Assembly (NCBI GenBank): GCA_016194905.1
Contig: JACQAP010000019.1
Location: 124,001-188,000, forward strand
Direction of reading: 5' to 3'
From: Betaproteobacteria bacterium
GTDB taxonomy: Bacteria > Pseudomonadota > Gammaproteobacteria > Burkholderiales > JACQAP01
DNA length: 64,000 bases
Shown: piece by piece, positions 36,875 through 48,031 of the stretch
Numbering within the stretch: the stretch's first letter is position 1
Layout of the letters: the number at the start of each line of letters is the position of its first letter
Notes under the pieces: model-generated
Told to the model about the DNA's origin: nothing
Seen by the model: only the letters and a program-made list of their open reading frames with translations
Database searches by the model: none
Translations under genes and position numbers: made by a program

Positions 36875-38071
36875 TCAGTGTCCCCCGCCCTGGCCAGCGG
36901 CCCGCGCCTCGAGGATGTCCACGGCAGGCAGTTTTTTACCTTCGAGGAATTCGAGGAAAGCTCCGCCTCCCGTGGAAATGTAGCCGATCTTGTTTTCGAT
37001 TCCGTATTTCGCGATGGCAGCGACGGTATCACCACCGCCGGCGATCGAGAATGCCGCCGAACCGGCAATCGCCTTCGCGAGTGTCTTCGTACCCTCGCCG
37101 AAGCGCTCGAATTCGAACACGCCGACCGGGCCATTCCAGACGATGGTGCCGGCCTTGCCGAGAATACCAGCGAGTTGCGAAGCCGTCCTCGGCCCGATGT
37201 CCAGGATCAGATCGTCGGCTGCGACCTCTTTCGCATCTTTCACCATTGCCTTGGCATCTGCCGAGAATTCCTTGGCGCAAACCACATCCACAGGGATCGG
37301 CACACCGCCGCCTTTCGCTTCGATGATGGCCATGATGTTCCTGGCTTCGCCGACAAGATCGGCCTCGGCCAGCGATTTGCCGATCGACAGACCGCAGGCA
37401 AGCATGAACGTATTCGCGATTCCCCCGCCGACGATCAGCTGGTCCACTTTTTTCGCCAGTTCGCCGAGGATGGTGAGCTTCGTGGACACCTTCGAGCCGG
37501 CGACGATCGCCACCAGCGGGCGTTTGGGATCGCGTAAAGCCTTGCCCAGTGCGTCGAGTTCCGCCGCCATGAGCGGCCCGGCGCACGCGACCGGCGCATA
37601 TTTGGCGATGCCGTGGGTAGTCGCTTCCGCACGGTGCGCCGTGCCGAACGCATCGTTCACGTAGACATCGCAGAGCGCGGCCATTTTTCTCGCCAGCGCG
37701 TCGTCGTTTTTCTTTTCGCCCTTGTTGACGCGACAGTTTTCCAGCAACACGACCTGGCCGGGTTTGACGTCCACGCCAGCGACCCAGTGCGCCTTCAGCG
37801 GCACCGGCATGTCGAGCAGTTCGGACAGACGCTGCGCGACTGGCGCCAGCGAATCCTCGGGTTTGAATTCGCCTTCGGTCGGTCGACCTAGATGCGAAGT
37901 CGCCATGACCGCGGCGCCGGCCTTGAGCGCATGGCGCAACGCCGGGACGGAAGCGCGAATACGGGTGTCGTCGGTAATGTTGCCGGCATCGTCCTGCGGA
38001 ACGTTCAGGTCGGCGCGAATGAACACGCGTTTGCCGCGCAGGTCGAGATCGGTCATCCGCAGGATAGTCAT
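36875..38071 (-). CDS. pgk: phosphoglycerate kinase
   Basis: 398-residue glycolytic kinase. It begins with [25 protein letters not shown] and has [11 protein letters not shown] and, near the C-terminus, [12 protein letters not shown] and [14 protein letters not shown], the nucleotide-binding hallmarks. It is between gap and pyk; a 113-base gap with a hairpin separates it from gap. Confidence 0.98.
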
Positions 38072-38184: not shown

Positions 38185-39198
38185 TTATTTCGCGTTCACA
38201 AACGCAACCGTGGTATCGAGCATGCGATTGCTGAAACCCCACTCGTTGTCGTACCAGGAGCATACCTTGACGAGGGTTCCTTCCGAAACTTTGGTCAGCG
38301 TCGAGTCGAACACGGACGACGCCGGGTTGTGGTTGAAGTCCACCGAGACCAGGGGATCCTTGTTGTATTCGAGAATACCCTTGAGTTCGGCTTCGGAAGC
38401 CTGCTTCACCGCGTTGTTGACTTCTTCTACAGTGGTCGCCCGCTTGGCCACGAAGGAAAGATCGACGATGGACACATTGATGGTCGGAACGCGCATCGCA
38501 AAACCGTCCAGCTTGCCGTTCAACTCCGGGAGCACGAGACCGACCGCCGCAGCCGCGCCGGTTTTGGTTGGAATCATGGACATGGTCGCGGAACGCGCGC
38601 GGCGCAGATCGGTGTGATACACATCGGTCAGCACCTGATCGTTGGTGTACGCATGAATCGTGGTCATCAAGCCGTTGACCACGCCGATGCGATCATGCAA
38701 CGCCTTGACCAGGGGCGCCAGGCAATTGGTCGTACAACTGGCGTTGGAGATCACCGTATGCGCGGCTTTCAGGGTGCCGTGATTCACGCCGTAGACCACC
38801 GTGGCGTCGACGTCCTTGTCGCCAGGCGCGGAAATGATGACCTTCTTCGCTCCGGCCGTCAGGTGGGCGCCGGCCTTGGCCTTGCTGGTAAACAATCCAG
38901 TGCACTCGAGCACCACATCCACGCCGAGGTCCTTCCAGGGCAGCTCGGCAGGATTGCGCTGGGCGCAGACTTTGATCTTGTCGCCGTTGATGACCAGATA
39001 GTCGCCGTCGACCGCCACGGTGCCTGGGAACGTGCCATGGGCGGTGTCGTATTTGGTCAGATGGGCATTGATTTTCGCGTCGCCGAGGTCGTTGATCGCA
39101 ACGATCTGAATGTCATGCTTCTTTCCACCTTCGTAGTGCGCCCGCAGGATGTTGCGGCCGATCCGGCCATAGCCGTTTATTGCAACGCGAACAGTCAT
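38185..39198 (-). CDS. gap: glyceraldehyde-3-phosphate dehydrogenase, type I
   Basis: 337-residue NAD-binding enzyme: [16 protein letters not shown] at the N-terminus, catalytic C155 in [18 protein letters not shown] ribosome site lies about 12 bases before the ATG. First gene of the gap-pgk-pyk run on the minus strand. Confidence 0.98.
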
Positions 39199-40697: not shown

Positions 40698-42683
40698 TCA
40701 GATCAAACGTTTCACCGCGTCCGCGACGGCTTCGGCGGTGATGCCGAAGAATTTGAACAGTTCACCCGCGGGCGCCGATTCACCGAAGCGATCGAGTCCG
40801 ACCACCGCACCCTCAAGCCCAACGTACTTGCGCCAGAAGTCCGTCACGCCGGCTTCCACTGCGACGCGCTTCACGCCCTTGGGCAGCACCGCTTCGCGAT
40901 ATTGTGCCTCCTGGCGGTCGAACACGTTCGTACTCGGCATCGACACGACTCTCACTGCAACACCGGCGTCGGCCAGCAACTTCTGCGCGGCCATAGCCAG
41001 CGAAACTTCGGATCCGGTCGCGATGATGATTGCTTTTGCACTCGCGGCATCCGAGAGCACGTAACCGCCGCGCGCAATCTGTTTGATACGTTCGGCATCG
41101 CGCGCCTGGCAAGGAAGGTTCTGACGCGAGAACAGCAGGCACGCCGGTCCGTCCCGGCGCTCGATCGCGGCTATCCACGCCACCGCAGATTCCACCGAAT
41201 CGCAAGGTCGCCAGACGTCCATGTTCGGGATCAGGCGCAGACTGGCTGCATGCTCGACCGACTGGTGCGTGGGTCCGTCTTCGCCCAGGCCGATGGAATC
41301 GTGGGTGAACACGAACAGCGTGCGAATCTTCATCAGCGCCGCCATGCGTAGAGCATTTCGCGAATAGTCCGAGAATGTGAGGAAGGTCCCGCCGTAGGGA
41401 ATCAGCCCGCCGTGCAGCGTCATGCCGTTCATGATCGCGGACATGCCGAACTCGCGCACGCCATAGTAAACATAGTTGCCGCCACTGCCTTTGCCGACGC
41501 CTTTCGATCCCGACCACAGCGTCAGATTCGAGCCGGCCAGATCGGCCGAACCGCCGATGAGTTCGGGCAGCACCGGTGCCAGCGCTTCGATCGTATTTTG
41601 CGATGCTTTGCGGCTGGCGATCGTCTCGGCCTTCTCGTTGACCTTGGCGAGGAAACCCTCTGCGTGCTGGCGCCAGTTCTGCGGCAGCTCGGCCGACATG
41701 CGGCGCGAAAACTCGGCTGCTTCCTTCGGGAAAGTCTTCGAGTATGCGGCGAACCTGGCATTCCAATCCGCTTCCCGCGCCGCCCCTTTGCCCCGTGCGT
41801 CCCATCCCGCGTAGACATCGGCCGGGATTTCGAACGGCGCATGATCCCAGCCGATATTCCGGCGGGTCGCTGCGACTTCCTTTTCTCCCAACGCGGCACC
41901 GTGGCTGTCGTGACTGCCGGCCTTGTTGGGGGAACCCTTGCCGATGATGGTCTTGCAGCAGATCAGGCTTGGCTTGTCGGCCGTCTTTTTGCTCGTTTCG
42001 ATCGCGGCATTGACGGCATCCACATCGTGGCCGTCGACATTGCGCAGCACATGCCAGCCGTAAGCCTCGAAACGTTTCGGCGTGTCGTCGGTAAACCAGC
42101 CGTCGACATGGCCATCGATCGAGATGCCGTTATCGTCGTAAAACGCGATCAGCTTGCCCAGGCCGAGCGTACCGGCCAGCGAACACGCTTCGTGCGAAAT
42201 GCCTTCCATCAGGCAGCCGTCGCCGAGGAAGACATAGGTATGATGATTGACGATGTTGTGTCCGGGGCGGTTGAATTCCGCGGCCAGCAATTTTTCGGCG
42301 AGCGCCATGCCCACCGCGTTGCTTGTGCCTTGGCCGAGCGGCCCCGTAGTCGTTTCCACGCCGGGTGTCATGCCGAGTTCCGGATGTCCAGGCGTCATCG
42401 AATGCAACTGCCGGAAGCGTTTGATCTCATCCATGGGCAATGCATAACCGGTGAGATGCAACAACGCATACAACAACATGGAGCCGTGACCGTTGGAAAG
42501 CACGAAGCGGTCGCGATCCGCCCACTTCGTATTAGCCGGGTTGTGCCGTAGATGGTGATTCCATAACACCTCGGCGATTTCGGCCATGCCCATTGGCATG
42601 CCCGGATGGCCGGAGTTGGCTTTTTGTACTGCATCCATCGCCAGTGCGCGGATGGCGTTGGCAAGTTCGGTCCTGGTTGCCAT
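40698..42683 (-). CDS. tkt: transketolase
   Basis: 661-residue thiamine-diphosphate enzyme of the pentose phosphate pathway. [20 protein letters not shown] and [13 protein letters not shown] (ThDP/Mg binding) lie in the first half, and [19 protein letters not shown] and FSRQNLP in the second. AAGGAAG is close upstream of the ATG. First gene of the tkt-glk-SemiSWEET-gap run. Confidence 0.97.
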
Positions 42684-42761: not shown

Positions 42762-44021
42762 TTATTCCTCGGCGCGACGTGGAAGCTTGACGCCGAGTTG
42801 CTTCAACTTGCGATACAGGTGGGTGCGTTCCAGGCCTACGCGTTCGGCGACCCGGCTCATGTTTCCGCCTTCCCGGCTCAGATGGTATTCGAAATAGACG
42901 CGCTCGAAGGCATCGCGCGCCTCGCGCAATTCGCGATCCAGCGGCAACGTCTGCGCCGGGCTCGGCAGCGGCGCTTCCAGGGTCGCCAGTGCGTTGGTTA
43001 CATCGGCCACACCGATTTCGCCGCCAAGTGCCAGTTGCGCGACGGTCTTGACGACGCTTTCCAGCTGCACCAGGTTCCCGGGCCAGTGGTAATTGCGCAG
43101 CGCATTCAGCGCGGCCGTGTTGAAGCTGCGCGTCGGTGCCTCCTTCGACTCGATTGCACGCGATAGTACGAGATTGGCGAGTTCGGGCACGTCCTCGGCA
43201 CGTTCGCGCAACCCGGGCAGGCGCAGTATTACGCCAGCCAGAATTGCGTATAGCCTGGGTTCAAACGCGCCTTTTGCCACCAGTTCCGCGAGGTCCGTGG
43301 AGCTCGAGGAAAGCATTCGCGTGTTGTAACGCTCCAGTTTCAGCGTCTGGTTGAGCAGGTTTTTTTGCTGGGCACGCGTCATTTCTCCGACTTCGCGCAA
43401 AAACAGGATGCCCTCCGATGCCTGGCCGACCAGGTTGGTCTCCATCTGATCGAATGCTGAAAAATCCTCCGGGGCCACCCACGGTGTGTTGAGTTGGTGC
43501 AGCAGCCGCGCGCATTGTTCCATTCCCGCGCCAGGCTCACCGACAAACAGGGCTGACGATTTCAATGTGCGCAGCCGTTCGAGTTGCGTGCGCAACTGCT
43601 CGACCGCCCTCGATTTGCCGACCGTAGCCGGCACCGCAAGTGCATTGCTCTTGAGCGTCCCCTGCCTGAGCGCGGTGCCCACCGTGCTCAGCAGCTTCTG
43701 CAACGCGATCGGCTTTTCCAGAAACGCGTACGCACCGATGCGGGTGGCCTCGACGGCAGTATCGATGGTGCCGTGACCCGACATCATGACCACTGGCATG
43801 GTCAGCAGGCCGGTGCTGGCCCACTCCTTGAGCAGCGTGATGCCATCGGTGTCAGGCATCCAGATGTCGAGCAGCACCAGGTCCGGCCGGACGCGGACGC
43901 GGATCTGGCGCGCCTCGCCCGCGTTCTGCGCCAGCCGGACCTGGTGTCCTTCGTCGCGCAGGATTTCCGATAGCAACTCGCGTATCCCGACTTCGTCGTC
44001 CACAACCAGTATCTGGCTCAT
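42762..44021 (-). CDS. NtrX-like response regulator with a degenerate sigma-54 AAA+ domain
   Basis: 419 residues in NtrC-family order. The receiver looks intact: acidic pair DDE (8-10), phospho-acceptor D52 in LLDIWMPD, K103 in LEKP. The AAA+ region is worn: Walker A reads GEPGAGME (161-168, lysine replaced by M167), the stretch with GAFTGA is absent, Walker B reads ILFLREVGEM (R209 for aspartate), and WPGN is followed by LVQL not VREL. The Fis-type helix-turn-helix at the end (VAERVGLERTHLYRKLKQLG) is intact. It probably still binds DNA under phosphorylation control but should not drive sigma-54 polymerase. The kinase gene overlaps it by four bases. Confidence 0.9.
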   Translation of the reverse strand: MSQILVVDDEVGIRELLSEILRDEGHQVRLAQNAGEARQIRVRVRPDLVLLDIWMPDTDGITLLKEWASTGLLTMPVVMMSGHGTIDTAVEATRIGAYAFLEKPIALQKLLSTVGTALRQGTLKSNALAVPATVGKSRAVEQLRTQLERLRTLKSSALFVGEPGAGMEQCARLLHQLNTPWVAPEDFSAFDQMETNLVGQASEGILFLREVGEMTRAQQKNLLNQTLKLERYNTRMLSSSSTDLAELVAKGAFEPRLYAILAGVILRLPGLRERAEDVPELANLVLSRAIESKEAPTRSFNTAALNALRNYHWPGNLVQLESVVKTVAQLALGGEIGVADVTNALATLEAPLPSPAQTLPLDRELREARDAFERVYFEYHLSREGGNMSRVAERVGLERTHLYRKLKQLGVKLPRRAEE

Positions 44022-46216
44022 CTTCCCGCCTGCCTGTTGATTCGCAACTCGGCTACCGCGACCCGCGCACTCGGCAGATTGATCGTCACGCTCGCACCGC
44101 CCGACGGATCGTTGGCGACGGCGATCGTGCCGTTGTGCTCTTCAACAATCTTCTTGACGATGGCCAGACCGAGTCCGGTGCCCCTGGACTTGGTAGTGAC
44201 GTAAGGTTCGAATACACGGCTTATCAGCGCCTCGGGGAAGCCGGGTCCATTGTCGCGCATGGTGAGCTGCACGCCCGCGTCTATCGCTTCGGTTCGCACG
44301 ACGATGCGCGGCCCCGCCACATCGGACACCGCTTGCTCGGCGTTCTGCAGCAGGTTGTGGATGACCTGTCGCAGCTTGGCGGTATCGCCCGAAACCAGAG
44401 GAAGATTTGCGGCAAGCTCCAGCTGCATCGCCGAGCGAGACGACTCGTACAGTCCCATCACTTCGCGCGTCAACAGGTTCAAATCGAGCGGCTGCAAGTC
44501 CGGCACGGGCGAGCGGGCATACAGGCTGAATGCATCCACCATCGCCTTGAGCGCCGCCACTTGATTGACGATAGTCTGCGTCGAGCGTTTCAGAATTTCA
44601 GCTTCCTGACTGGGGAGCTTGTCGGCGAGACGATGTTGCAGGCGCTCCGCCGACAGCTGGATCGGGGTCAGTGGATTCTTGATTTCGTGCGCCAGCCGTT
44701 GCGCCACTTCTCCCCATGCGGCAAGACGTTGCGCCTGCCGCATCCGGGTGATGTCGTCGAACACCAGCACCATGCCGGTTTGCGCGCTGGCGGAGAGCCT
44801 GGATCCGCGCAAAAGCAACACCTGCTGGCCGGCAGCGCCGGATAATTCCACCTGTGTTTCCCAAGGTTCGTCGCGCGCTTTCACTAACGCTTCCCGTACG
44901 GCGTTGCCGACCGCGGCCAGCCGCGGCTCGCGGTCCGCCCACTCATTCGGATGTGTGGAAATCAAGTCGCCGACGTCGACGCCGAGAATCTGCTCCGCAC
45001 TGCGGTTGGCCGAGCGCAACCGGAATTCGGCATCGAACGACATTACGCCCGCCGAGAGGTTGCCGAGCACGCTTTCCAGGTACGCCTTGGCAGCGGCAAC
45101 CTGTTCCTGATTGCGCTGCGCGTCGGCCTGGGCATCCGCGAGTTGCATGGTCATGATGTTGAAGGATTCGGTCAGCAATCCCAGTTCGTCATGGGACTTT
45201 ACCGTATGACGCTGGCTGAAATCGCCTTGCGCGACGGCGCGCGTACCGGCGGCGAGCACACCCAGGGGCGCGGACAACCGCCCGCTGAACAGGATAGCCA
45301 GCAGAAGCGCGGAAAGCAGTGCCAGCAGCAGCGACAGCGTGAGCGTTAAGGCATACAACCGTTTCAACCCGAGCCGCGACAGCGACAATTCCTGGTAGTC
45401 GCGGTAGATCTCCTGCACGGTCTGGGCGTCGCGCGCCAGCGCCGGCGGCACCGGCTGAATCAGTTGTAACAGCAATGTCGCCCCCGTCACATCGTTGACT
45501 GGTACCAGAACGCGCAACTGCAGGCCGCCTTCGCCGAGCGCTTCGATCGCACTGTAGGGCTGCTGCATGCGAACCCTGCGAACTACGGACGGCGATGGCA
45601 ATTCCGGTACAAGGCTGGTCGAATCCGCGCTCGAAAACGCGATCACCGAGCCGTCGGTGCGCAAGAGCGTCGCTTCGTTCACTGCCGCCTGTTCGCGCAG
45701 GGTGTTCAGCGTCGCCAGCTGGCGCGGTGTCGCGCGCTCCGACAGCACCAGCGTCATCGATTCCGCCTTGCGCCGCAAATCCTTCAGCATGTTGTCCAGA
45801 TTCACGCGCCCCAGGCTCAGGCCGCCTTCGAGTGCTTTTTCCACCCGCACGTCGAACCAGGATTCGATGGATCGCGAAAGGAATTGCACGGACACTGCGT
45901 AGACCAGCGCTCCGGGTAACACTGCAACCAGCGCGAACAGCAACACCAGCCGCAGCGTCAGCTTGGAACCGAATACGCGCGCGTTGAGCCGCCTTCGCAG
46001 CAACAACAACTGGTAGCCAACAACCAGCATGAGGATCAGGACGACACCGACCCCGAGCGCCAGCAGCAACGGCAAATCGCTGGAAAACCACGGCGTGTTG
46101 GCACTGGCACCGGACAGCAGATAGAGCATCACCGCGCCGAGCGTGAGGACGAGCGCGATCAGAAACTGCATTCCCCGGCTCAGCAGCGAGCGTCTGACGA
46201 TGCGGGCCAGATTCAT
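44018..46216 (-). CDS. NtrY-like sensor histidine kinase
   Basis: 732 residues from ATG 46216, which overlaps the upstream gene's stop as ATGA. Membrane helices near the N-terminus (FLIALVLTLGAVMLYLL; LLLALGVGVVLILMLVVGYQ; LVLLFALVAVLPGALVYAV), an extracytoplasmic part, another helix (LYALTLTLSLLLALLSALLL), HAMP, PAS (LGNLSAGVMSFDAEFRLRSA), then the H-box RLAHEIKNPLTPIQLSAERL and ATP-binding boxes (NLLQNAEQAV, DNGPGFPEAL, GTGLGLAIVKKI). It should phosphorylate the NtrX-like partner. Signal unknown; NtrYX systems in related bacteria respond to nitrogen or redox state. Confidence 0.93.
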   Translation of the reverse strand: MNLARIVRRSLLSRGMQFLIALVLTLGAVMLYLLSGASANTPWFSSDLPLLLALGVGVVLILMLVVGYQLLLLRRRLNARVFGSKLTLRLVLLFALVAVLPGALVYAVSVQFLSRSIESWFDVRVEKALEGGLSLGRVNLDNMLKDLRRKAESMTLVLSERATPRQLATLNTLREQAAVNEATLLRTDGSVIAFSSADSTSLVPELPSPSVVRRVRMQQPYSAIEALGEGGLQLRVLVPVNDVTGATLLLQLIQPVPPALARDAQTVQEIYRDYQELSLSRLGLKRLYALTLTLSLLLALLSALLLAILFSGRLSAPLGVLAAGTRAVAQGDFSQRHTVKSHDELGLLTESFNIMTMQLADAQADAQRNQEQVAAAKAYLESVLGNLSAGVMSFDAEFRLRSANRSAEQILGVDVGDLISTHPNEWADREPRLAAVGNAVREALVKARDEPWETQVELSGAAGQQVLLLRGSRLSASAQTGMVLVFDDITRMRQAQRLAAWGEVAQRLAHEIKNPLTPIQLSAERLQHRLADKLPSQEAEILKRSTQTIVNQVAALKAMVDAFSLYARSPVPDLQPLDLNLLTREVMGLYESSRSAMQLELAANLPLVSGDTAKLRQVIHNLLQNAEQAVSDVAGPRIVVRTEAIDAGVQLTMRDNGPGFPEALISRVFEPYVTTKSRGTGLGLAIVKKIVEEHNGTIAVANDPSGGASVTINLPSARVAVAELRINRQAGR

Positions 46217-46800
46217 CGAGTCAGCGTCCAGCGGAACCATTCCGAAGCAAGATTCCAGTCGCGTGAGGCCAGCGCGTTTATCTGGAACGGCTTGGGCAGT
46301 TGCGAAACGTCGAACCGCATGCGAATTGCCGCTTCGTAGACCTTGCCCTGATCCAACATGTCGGCATCCGCCAAGAAACGCGGCCGCAGGCGACCCATCA
46401 GCGCAAGCGCATCATTGAGCGTGTCGAAATTCTGATGGAGGGCACCCAGTGACAATCGGTACTGGCGGGTAAGCGCGTTATAGGAAAGCCGATAGTGCTG
46501 CTCGAATTCGAGTACCGACTTGTTCCAGAGATAGAGCGTGTACCAGCGCGGCCGGATCAGCTCGAACTCCAAGATGAAATGCAGCGGCAGGCCTTTGTTG
46601 AGCGCATCCTCGAGCGTATGGGTCAGTTCGACCTCGAAATTCGCTTCAAGATAGTAGTCGCCGCCGTTCTGCGAGATCTCTGCGAACTTGACGTGGATGC
46701 CTTCGGTAGCCGCGAACACCGTACTGCACCAGAACACGCACAGTGCCAGCAGCCAGCGCAAAAAATCAGTCTTTCTGGAGGAGGGCGTAATAAAAACCAT
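46213..46800 (-). CDS. DUF4390 protein
   Basis: 195 residues from ATG 46800, with an N-terminal signal peptide or anchor (WLLALCVFWCSTVFA) and a beta-rich remainder (YYLEANFEVELTHTLEDAL, IRPRWYTLYLWNKSVLEFEQHYRLSYN). It begins inside the 3' end of rsmB (35-base overlap) and its stop overlaps ntrY. Conserved next to rsmB and ntrY in Betaproteobacteria; function unknown. A frame start at 46881 is possible but lies deeper inside rsmB. Confidence 0.88.
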   Translation of the reverse strand: MVFITPSSRKTDFLRWLLALCVFWCSTVFAATEGIHVKFAEISQNGGDYYLEANFEVELTHTLEDALNKGLPLHFILEFELIRPRWYTLYLWNKSVLEFEQHYRLSYNALTRQYRLSLGALHQNFDTLNDALALMGRLRPRFLADADMLDQGKVYEAAIRMRFDVSQLPKPFQINALASRDWNLASEWFRWTLTR

Positions 46801-48031
46801 CGTGCTCGTCGTCCGGGAGCAGTAAACCGTCGCGTCCCGGCATTCCTCCCAGAATGCGCGCGTCGGGGTGGCGCGCCGCAAAACTGCCTATCGTCTCGTG
46901 ATCCTCTTCGCTGAAAATCGAACAGGTCACGTAAAGCAATTTACCACCACGGGCGACGACCTTCCACAGTGCTTCCAGCAGTCGCTGCTGCTGCGCGGCA
47001 AATCCGGCGATGTCCGAGGGTCTCCTGAGCCATTTGATATCCGGGTGCCGCCGCACGACTCCGGAAGCGGAGCAGGGTGCGTCGAGCAGCACCCGTTCGA
47101 ATTGTTTACCGTCCCACCAAGCATCCGGCACGGCCGCATCCGCAGCTTGCAGCCGCGCACTCAGCCCAAGACGTTCGAGATTCGACCCCACGCGCTGCAA
47201 CCGCACGGCATCCGCATCGAGTGCCACCATCTCGACATCTGCCAGTTCCAGAATATGTGCTGTTTTGCCGCCCGGTGCCGAGCATGCATCGAGTACGCGC
47301 ATACCGTCTCTGACACCCAGCAACGTCGCCGCGAATTGCGCGCCGGCATCCTGAACTGAAGCCGCGCCATCTCCAAATCCGGGCAATCGATCGACCGGCA
47401 TCGGTCGCGCCAGCAGAAGCGCGCCGTTATCGAGTCTGCGCACCTCGAGTCCAGCCTGCCGCAACCGCTGCAAATAGTCACTCACGCTGCCACGCCTGAC
47501 GTTTGTCCGCAGCGTCATGGGCGGATGGCGGTTACCGATCTCCAGAATGCGCTCGGCATCCGGACCGAAGTCGCGTCTCAGCCTGTCTACCCACCAATCG
47601 GGATAGGAGAAACGTCCCTCGTCGAGTAGTTCGGCATTCGCCAGCAAGACTTCACGCCGGCGCTGATAGTTGCGCAGCACCGCATTGGCAAAAGACCTGA
47701 CATGTTCGCCGCCGAGTTGCACGGCGCATTCGACCGCGTGATCGACCACTGCGTATGGCGCGGCGTCACTGTACTCGAGTTGATAGAGCACCGTCAGCAG
47801 CAAGATCCGCAATTCGGGACTGGCTATCGGTTTTGTAGCGAGCTGGTCGAGCACCGCCGTGAGCTTTCCAAGATACCGCAGCGTCCCGTAGCAGATATCC
47901 TGGATGGCACCGCGATCGGGGGTAGTCAGGTGTCGATTCCGGCGCCAGACCGAATCGAGCGCCACGTTAAGACTGGTGCCTGATATTACATTTGCGACCG
48001 TTTGCGCGGCGAGCCGCTGGATCTGGAGCAC
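46766..48031 (-). CDS. rsmB: 16S rRNA (cytosine-967-C5) methyltransferase
   Basis: 421 residues: N-terminal NusB-like domain (AAQTVANVISG, LLLTVLYQLEYSDAAPYAVVDHAVE), then a SAM-dependent methyltransferase with DACSAPGGKTAHILE, LLDAPCSASGVVRRHPDIKW and VTCSIFSEED, containing both catalytic cysteines. The start is GTG (48031), 12 bases after the fmt stop. Confidence 0.96.
   Translation of the reverse strand: MLQIQRLAAQTVANVISGTSLNVALDSVWRRNRHLTTPDRGAIQDICYGTLRYLGKLTAVLDQLATKPIASPELRILLLTVLYQLEYSDAAPYAVVDHAVECAVQLGGEHVRSFANAVLRNYQRRREVLLANAELLDEGRFSYPDWWVDRLRRDFGPDAERILEIGNRHPPMTLRTNVRRGSVSDYLQRLRQAGLEVRRLDNGALLLARPMPVDRLPGFGDGAASVQDAGAQFAATLLGVRDGMRVLDACSAPGGKTAHILELADVEMVALDADAVRLQRVGSNLERLGLSARLQAADAAVPDAWWDGKQFERVLLDAPCSASGVVRRHPDIKWLRRPSDIAGFAAQQQRLLEALWKVVARGGKLLYVTCSIFSEEDHETIGSFAARHPDARILGGMPGRDGLLLPDDEHDGFYYALLQKD

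Follow-up and report, generated by a model that had tools for sequence, protein, structure and literature searches.

An NtrX-type response regulator of the Burkholderiales with a predicted folded but catalytically dismantled AAA+ domain that appears to have been excised repeatedly within the order

The closest described relatives of the system analyzed here are the PlrR/NtrX regulators of betaproteobacteria (Bordetella PlrPSR, Herbaspirillum NtrYX and Neisseria NtrYX), which share a similar receiver and helix-turn-helix (HTH) domain, a HEIKN-type kinase, and the gene order rsmB-plrP(DUF4390)-kinase-regulator. In Bordetella, where the PlrPSR gene arrangement has been described, PlrP is the third component of the system, phosphorylated PlrR is needed for viability, and PlrR is presented as a receiver plus a DNA-binding domain; betaproteobacterial NtrX proteins are said in the same paper to lack the AAA+ domain, with reference to Bonato 2016 (PMC13001219). 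In Neisseria, respiratory genes depend on NtrX, and according to the same review four NtrX classes have been described (PMC12697260), so that part of the domain variation of this family may already be on record. Regulators derived from sigma-54 activators (bEBPs) but lacking the GAFTGA motif are able to work at sigma-70 promoters without ATP hydrolysis; such GAFTGA-less proteins, acting on sigma-70-type promoters, include NtrC of Rhodobacter capsulatus and Caulobacter and VspR of Vibrio, and Caulobacter NtrX has also been reported without this motif (PMC10274813). A putative binding motif, GCAn9TGC, has been published; on its own, unsupported by expression data, it is too short to be telling.

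The window, a 64,000-nucleotide stretch of a Burkholderiales genome, encodes on its minus strand (42762..44021) an NtrX/PlrR-type response regulator of 419 aa with an ATG start, here designated P0001. Pfam and AlphaFold define a receiver (residues 1-120), an AAA+ domain with its lid (131-347), a linker (348-362) and a Fis-type HTH (363-412), with Pfam matches to Response_reg (4-114), Sigma54_activ_2 (134-271), AAA_lid_14 (272-347) and HTH_8 (371-409). The AAA+ region with lid (42981..43631, minus strand) is referred to below as the husk, on the basis of the motif alignment, predicted fold and dN/dS values. The best model of all was the NCBIfam NtrX equivalog, which matched the whole length with 284.9 bits, below its curated cut-off of 600 bits; the receiver with its phospho-acceptor Asp, the Fis-type HTH and the adjoining ntrY gene are those of the NtrYX family. 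The standard Sigma54_activat model matched P0001 only partially (residues 193-263, 43 bits); six proteins of the same genome scored 193-246 bits with it.

The start of ntrX is overlapped by 4 nt by a gene for an NtrY/PlrS-like sensor kinase (44018..46240, minus strand) with HAMP, PAS, HisKA and HATPase domains. As originally predicted, its catalytic boxes are intact: HEIKN (518), NLLQNA (629), DNGPG (663), FEPY (677) and GTGLGLA (687). Further upstream on the minus strand lie a gene for a PlrP-like DUF4390 protein (46213..46881; PF14334, 177.5 bits), whose true start is probably at about 46800, and rsmB for a 16S rRNA methyltransferase (46766..48031; PF01189, 178.7 bits), identified as a conserved upstream neighbor by synteny in the relatives. 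The arrangement rsmB-plrP-ntrY-ntrX, with rsmB and the DUF4390 gene 5' of the kinase gene, is thus of the PlrPSR type, and it was found in nearly all relatives with enough flanking DNA, whether they carry long or short forms of the regulator or belong to the gammaproteobacteria. A system of this type would further entail that PlrP sets the balance between kinase and phosphatase activity of the sensor. P0001 departs from the description of Bordetella PlrR, a regulator without an AAA+ domain, in that it carries an AAA+ remnant of ~215 residues that is predicted to be folded. Other families of the order carry the short form, and Neisseria relatives share the husk form with P0001.

Downstream of ntrX, on the same strand, are genes for transketolase-like (40698-42683, beginning 78 nt past the ntrX stop), glyceraldehyde-3-phosphate dehydrogenase-like (38185-39198) and phosphoglycerate kinase-like (36875-38071) proteins. 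In Bordetella, the place downstream of the regulator gene is occupied by trkA.

The original prediction, made from the DNA sequence of the window, was that the receiver and HTH of this regulator are intact while its ATPase domain is dismantled, and in its main points this held. The receiver residues D8, D9, E10, D52 and K103 are present in P0001 and invariant across 148 husk-form relatives, and the HTH is complete. In Walker A (GEPGAGM) the lysine is replaced by M167, in Walker B (LFLREVGEM) the aspartate by R209 with E210 kept, the sensor-II arginine is missing from GNLVQL, and GAFTGA was not found anywhere in the protein. The interval between the Walker motifs is indeed short, although M167 and R209 are 42 residues apart rather than the claimed 44 or so. 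In addition, the arginine-finger motif FRxDLYY reads FEPRLYA, the Arg of gamma-type NtrX being replaced by E254. As controls, three sigma-54 activators encoded in the same genome were examined, and all of them retain the Walker K, D and E, the sensor-II Arg, and a GAFTGA or GSFTGA loop. P0001 shares the fold and domain order of NtrC, ZraR and PspF, but of the features of a sigma-54 activator it has only the AAA+ fold, the ATP-hydrolysis and sigma-54-contact motifs (Walker K + DE, GAFTGA, arginine finger and sensor-II Arg) being absent. The GAFTGA-less regulators mentioned above lack the L1 loop, and P0001 lacks the Walker, arginine-finger and sensor-II residues as well. NtrX of Brucella abortus (5m7n, 5m7o, 5m7p), the best match in both sequence and structure, shows the same succession of receiver, AAA+ fold, lid and HTH and is also without GAFTGA; in contrast to P0001, where only the Walker B glutamate remains, its Walker lysine, Walker B DE and sensor-II Arg are all in place, and it was crystallized with ATP or ADP.

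In an alignment of the 148 husks, 45 gamma-type NtrX proteins and the three control activators, the Walker lysine was found in 5/148 husks, 31/45 gamma-type NtrX and 3/3 controls; the complete K+D+E set in none of the husks, 7/45 and 3/3; and the sensor-II Arg in 1/148, 37/45 and 3/3, respectively. GAFTGA was absent from all 148 husks and also from all 45 gammaproteobacterial NtrX and from Brucella NtrX (5m7n), so its loss is a trait of the family, which removes it as a distinguishing feature of P0001; loss of the catalytic residues is peculiar to the order. Nor is the dismantling a change in the lineage of P0001: it is an old trait found across the order. The occurrence of the same losses in all 148 husk relatives places the pattern far beyond chance. 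A sequencing error or pseudogene in a single assembly was ruled out and has a practically negligible probability, given the uninterrupted 419-aa frame, the 90-93% identical orthologues in two congeneric genomes and these shared losses. The alignment suggests that NtrX probably gave up the contact loop at an early stage, and that the ATP site disappeared in this order alone, some erosion of it being visible already in gammaproteobacteria. Two gammaproteobacterial NtrX proteins of ~420 aa (L134 and L135; same class, family f5) retain the Walker lysine or its neighbor and have lost the contact-loop region and the Walker B Asp; judging from their sequences, this erosion looks separate and parallel.

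From the alignment we infer that the husks have lost nucleotide binding. Against a full loss count the five husks that retain the Walker lysine, the acidic residue at the Walker B Glu position in 131/148, and P-loop G164, kept in 143/148. The latter two features would also fit a husk with a remaining, non-canonical pocket for a nucleotide or some other ligand, whose binding tunes the interaction with DNA, as would the c-di-GMP-bound structures of FleQ and VpsR, both relatives in the fold search. Nevertheless, we consider such a pocket decidedly unlikely, because the Walker K column is highly variable (2.94 bits) and mostly hydrophobic, with A, V, I, L, M, F or P in 124/148 husks, the residues at the Walker B Asp position are close to random (3.10 bits), and no shared replacement motif was found at the nucleotide site among the 148 aligned husks. 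Three other positions have switched class-wide in the husks relative to gamma-type NtrX: Trp takes the place of F181 in 131/148, Asp/Glu that of the arginine finger at 254 in 138/148, and Leu that of Q305 in 129/148.

The distribution of the regulator was examined across 300 evenly sampled genomes of the order. At E <= 1e-90 the long form was detected in 199 of them, with a few more at weaker scores; its bearers include Nitrosomonas, Nitrosospira, Chromobacterium, Thiobacillus, Methylotenera, Accumulibacter, Dechloromonas, Azospira, Aromatoleum and Neisseria. In ~76 other genomes the best match started at residue 1 and stopped at ~120-140 (as far as 168 in a few cases), with an identity to P0001 of roughly 60-78%, and the frames concerned mostly span 210-350 codons; this weaker-match search took in the 300 genomes minus four (G653, G660, G662 and G663). 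The 44 short forms that were read and used consist of the receiver, a low-complexity linker of variable length and the same HTH, without an AAA+ domain, and the remainder of the ~76 were assigned by match span. The rpoN gene was found in 279/300 genomes and in that of P0001, so loss of sigma-54 was rejected as the cause of the dismantling. The searched genomes of family f222 (e.g. G408, G452 and G492) yielded neither a long nor a short NtrX, and no rpoN.

Several divergent relatives were observed in the course of these searches. A 1.4-Mb genome of family f206 (G646) carries a very divergent long form (L251) with 33% identity to P0001, and no plrP match was found between rsmB and ntrY at this locus. 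The genome of P0001 itself encodes a second, orphan NtrX-like regulator (L123:4842-6359; G000:C29:91082-92599, minus strand), 44% identical to P0001, in which the Walker lysine is replaced by Arg, GAFTGA and an adjoining ntrY are lacking, and the C-terminal HTH is duplicated in tandem. This type of orphan was present in 2/150 genomes of the order, the other copy (L269 of G431, 68%) also having the tandem HTH; both copies adjoin a porin gene.

Losses of the whole domain were mapped on a tree of 78 rows built from the receiver, HTH and NtrY, with the AAA+ columns excluded. In this quick tree, in which some rows are long, the gammaproteobacteria fell outside with a support of 100, and the AAA-less forms were nested among the husks at three separate spots: family f205 (100), genus g304 of family f215 (98) and a large clade of eight families (96). 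Enforcing one origin of the short forms cost 179 log-likelihood units (p-AU 4e-83). An NtrY-only tree, likewise quick and with some long rows, recovered the same three groups, its starred branches forcing three changes. A single origin was thus rejected by both analyses. Genus g304 holds both forms, a husk in G650 and short forms in G401, G524 and G590, whose receiver and HTH align end to end with those of the husk form; ntrY and rsmB-plrP adjoin both. These comparisons indicate no fewer than three independent excisions of the AAA+ domain, one of which took place inside a single genus.

Such excisions raise the question of whether the husk is a vestigial spacer heading for deletion that only holds the two ends of the protein apart. 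Its three independent complete removals with the ends conserved, the low-complexity linkers of variable length that take its place, and the higher entropy of the AAA part in husks than in gamma-type NtrX (2.17 vs 1.56 bits) would all be expected of a spacer. However, in close pairs among three genomes of the genus, dN/dS of the husk was 0.064-0.077 (receiver, 0.016-0.024; HTH, 0-0.05), on a par with the 0.055-0.083 obtained for the intact catalytic region of NtrY in these pairs. AlphaFold (64 sequences) predicted the husk with a pLDDT of about 84-95, although the pTM was only 0.59 and the arrangement of the domains is not reliable. With this model, Foldseek returned Brucella NtrX (5m7p, 5m7n, 5m7o) first, followed by NtrC1 and NtrC4, and isolated AAA+ domains, those of NtrC1 and FlrC, matched with a target-normalized TM of about 0.75. 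The length of the husk form is nearly constant over the order (median 420 aa for the protein), and positions 181, 254 and 305 are fixed differently from gamma-type NtrX. The evidence says that the husk is not junk, since its dN/dS equals that of the NtrY catalytic region, an AAA+ fold is predicted, and the arginine finger has become Asp/Glu in nearly all husks. A mere spacer is therefore a rather doubtful explanation.

We propose, with a probability of roughly three in four, that P0001 is a phosphorylation-switched DNA-binding regulator independent of ATP and sigma-54, with a folded, dead husk as a scaffold, and that it arose by stepwise loss. NtrY, as its intact boxes and the published PlrSR work suggest, would phosphorylate D52 of the receiver and thereby alter the dimerization of P0001, and the C-terminal Fis-type HTH would bind DNA and act at sigma-70-type promoters without ATP. 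The catalytically dead but selected husk would serve for oligomerization or spacing between receiver and HTH. As to history, sequences and trees suggest that NtrX first lost the GAFTGA contact loop, a loss common to alpha- and gammaproteobacterial NtrX, that the nucleotide site and the arginine finger went next, in the ancestor of the order, and that later lineages dropped the whole domain at least three times, keeping the receiver, HTH, NtrY and gene order.

The original prediction envisaged a sigma-54-independent DNA binder or repressor. Sigma-54-independent action is strongly supported, because no husk relative has preserved the catalytic and contact motifs and the entire domain is absent in ~1/4 of the order with the receiver, HTH and NtrY kept. 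The repressor role found no support; the published phenotypes of related proteins (NtrX-dependent respiratory genes in Neisseria, the requirement for phospho-PlrR in Bordetella) speak for activation at least as much as for repression. Alternatively, P0001 could join the assemblies of an intact sigma-54 activator of the genome as an accessory subunit and modulate that activator in a dominant-negative manner. The genome does retain rpoN and the six strong Sigma54_activat proteins, but the ring-interface arginine finger and sensor II are gone and domain-deleted lineages retain the rest of the system, which makes this highly improbable. For the proposed scaffold, it should be noted that the independent complete losses show the husk to be dispensable, which sits uneasily with an essential role. 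We also entertain, as a tentative and on balance unlikely idea, that the dead AAA+ domain was remodeled into a nucleotide-free regulatory module, with Asp/Glu at the finger and the husk-specific Trp181, that controls receiver-HTH dimerization or binds a new ligand; the husk regulators would then form an intermediate class between sigma-54 activators and receiver-HTH regulators.

Betaproteobacterial NtrX without the AAA+ domain is partly known, while the prevalence in the order of a folded husk under selection, and its excision at least three times, appear to be new detail. Neither was found in the literature searched, to which the original work defining the four NtrX classes did not belong, and the search found no paper on inactive AAA+ domains in response regulators. 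The family shows how the sigma-54 activator mechanism was abandoned step by step although sigma-54 itself was kept in the genomes: the contact loop went first, then the ATP site, then the whole motor. It offers natural before/after pairs for the role of the AAA+ motor in a response regulator that can no longer use ATP as fuel. The system concerned governs respiratory genes in Neisseria, and in Bordetella its regulator is essential in the phosphorylated state.
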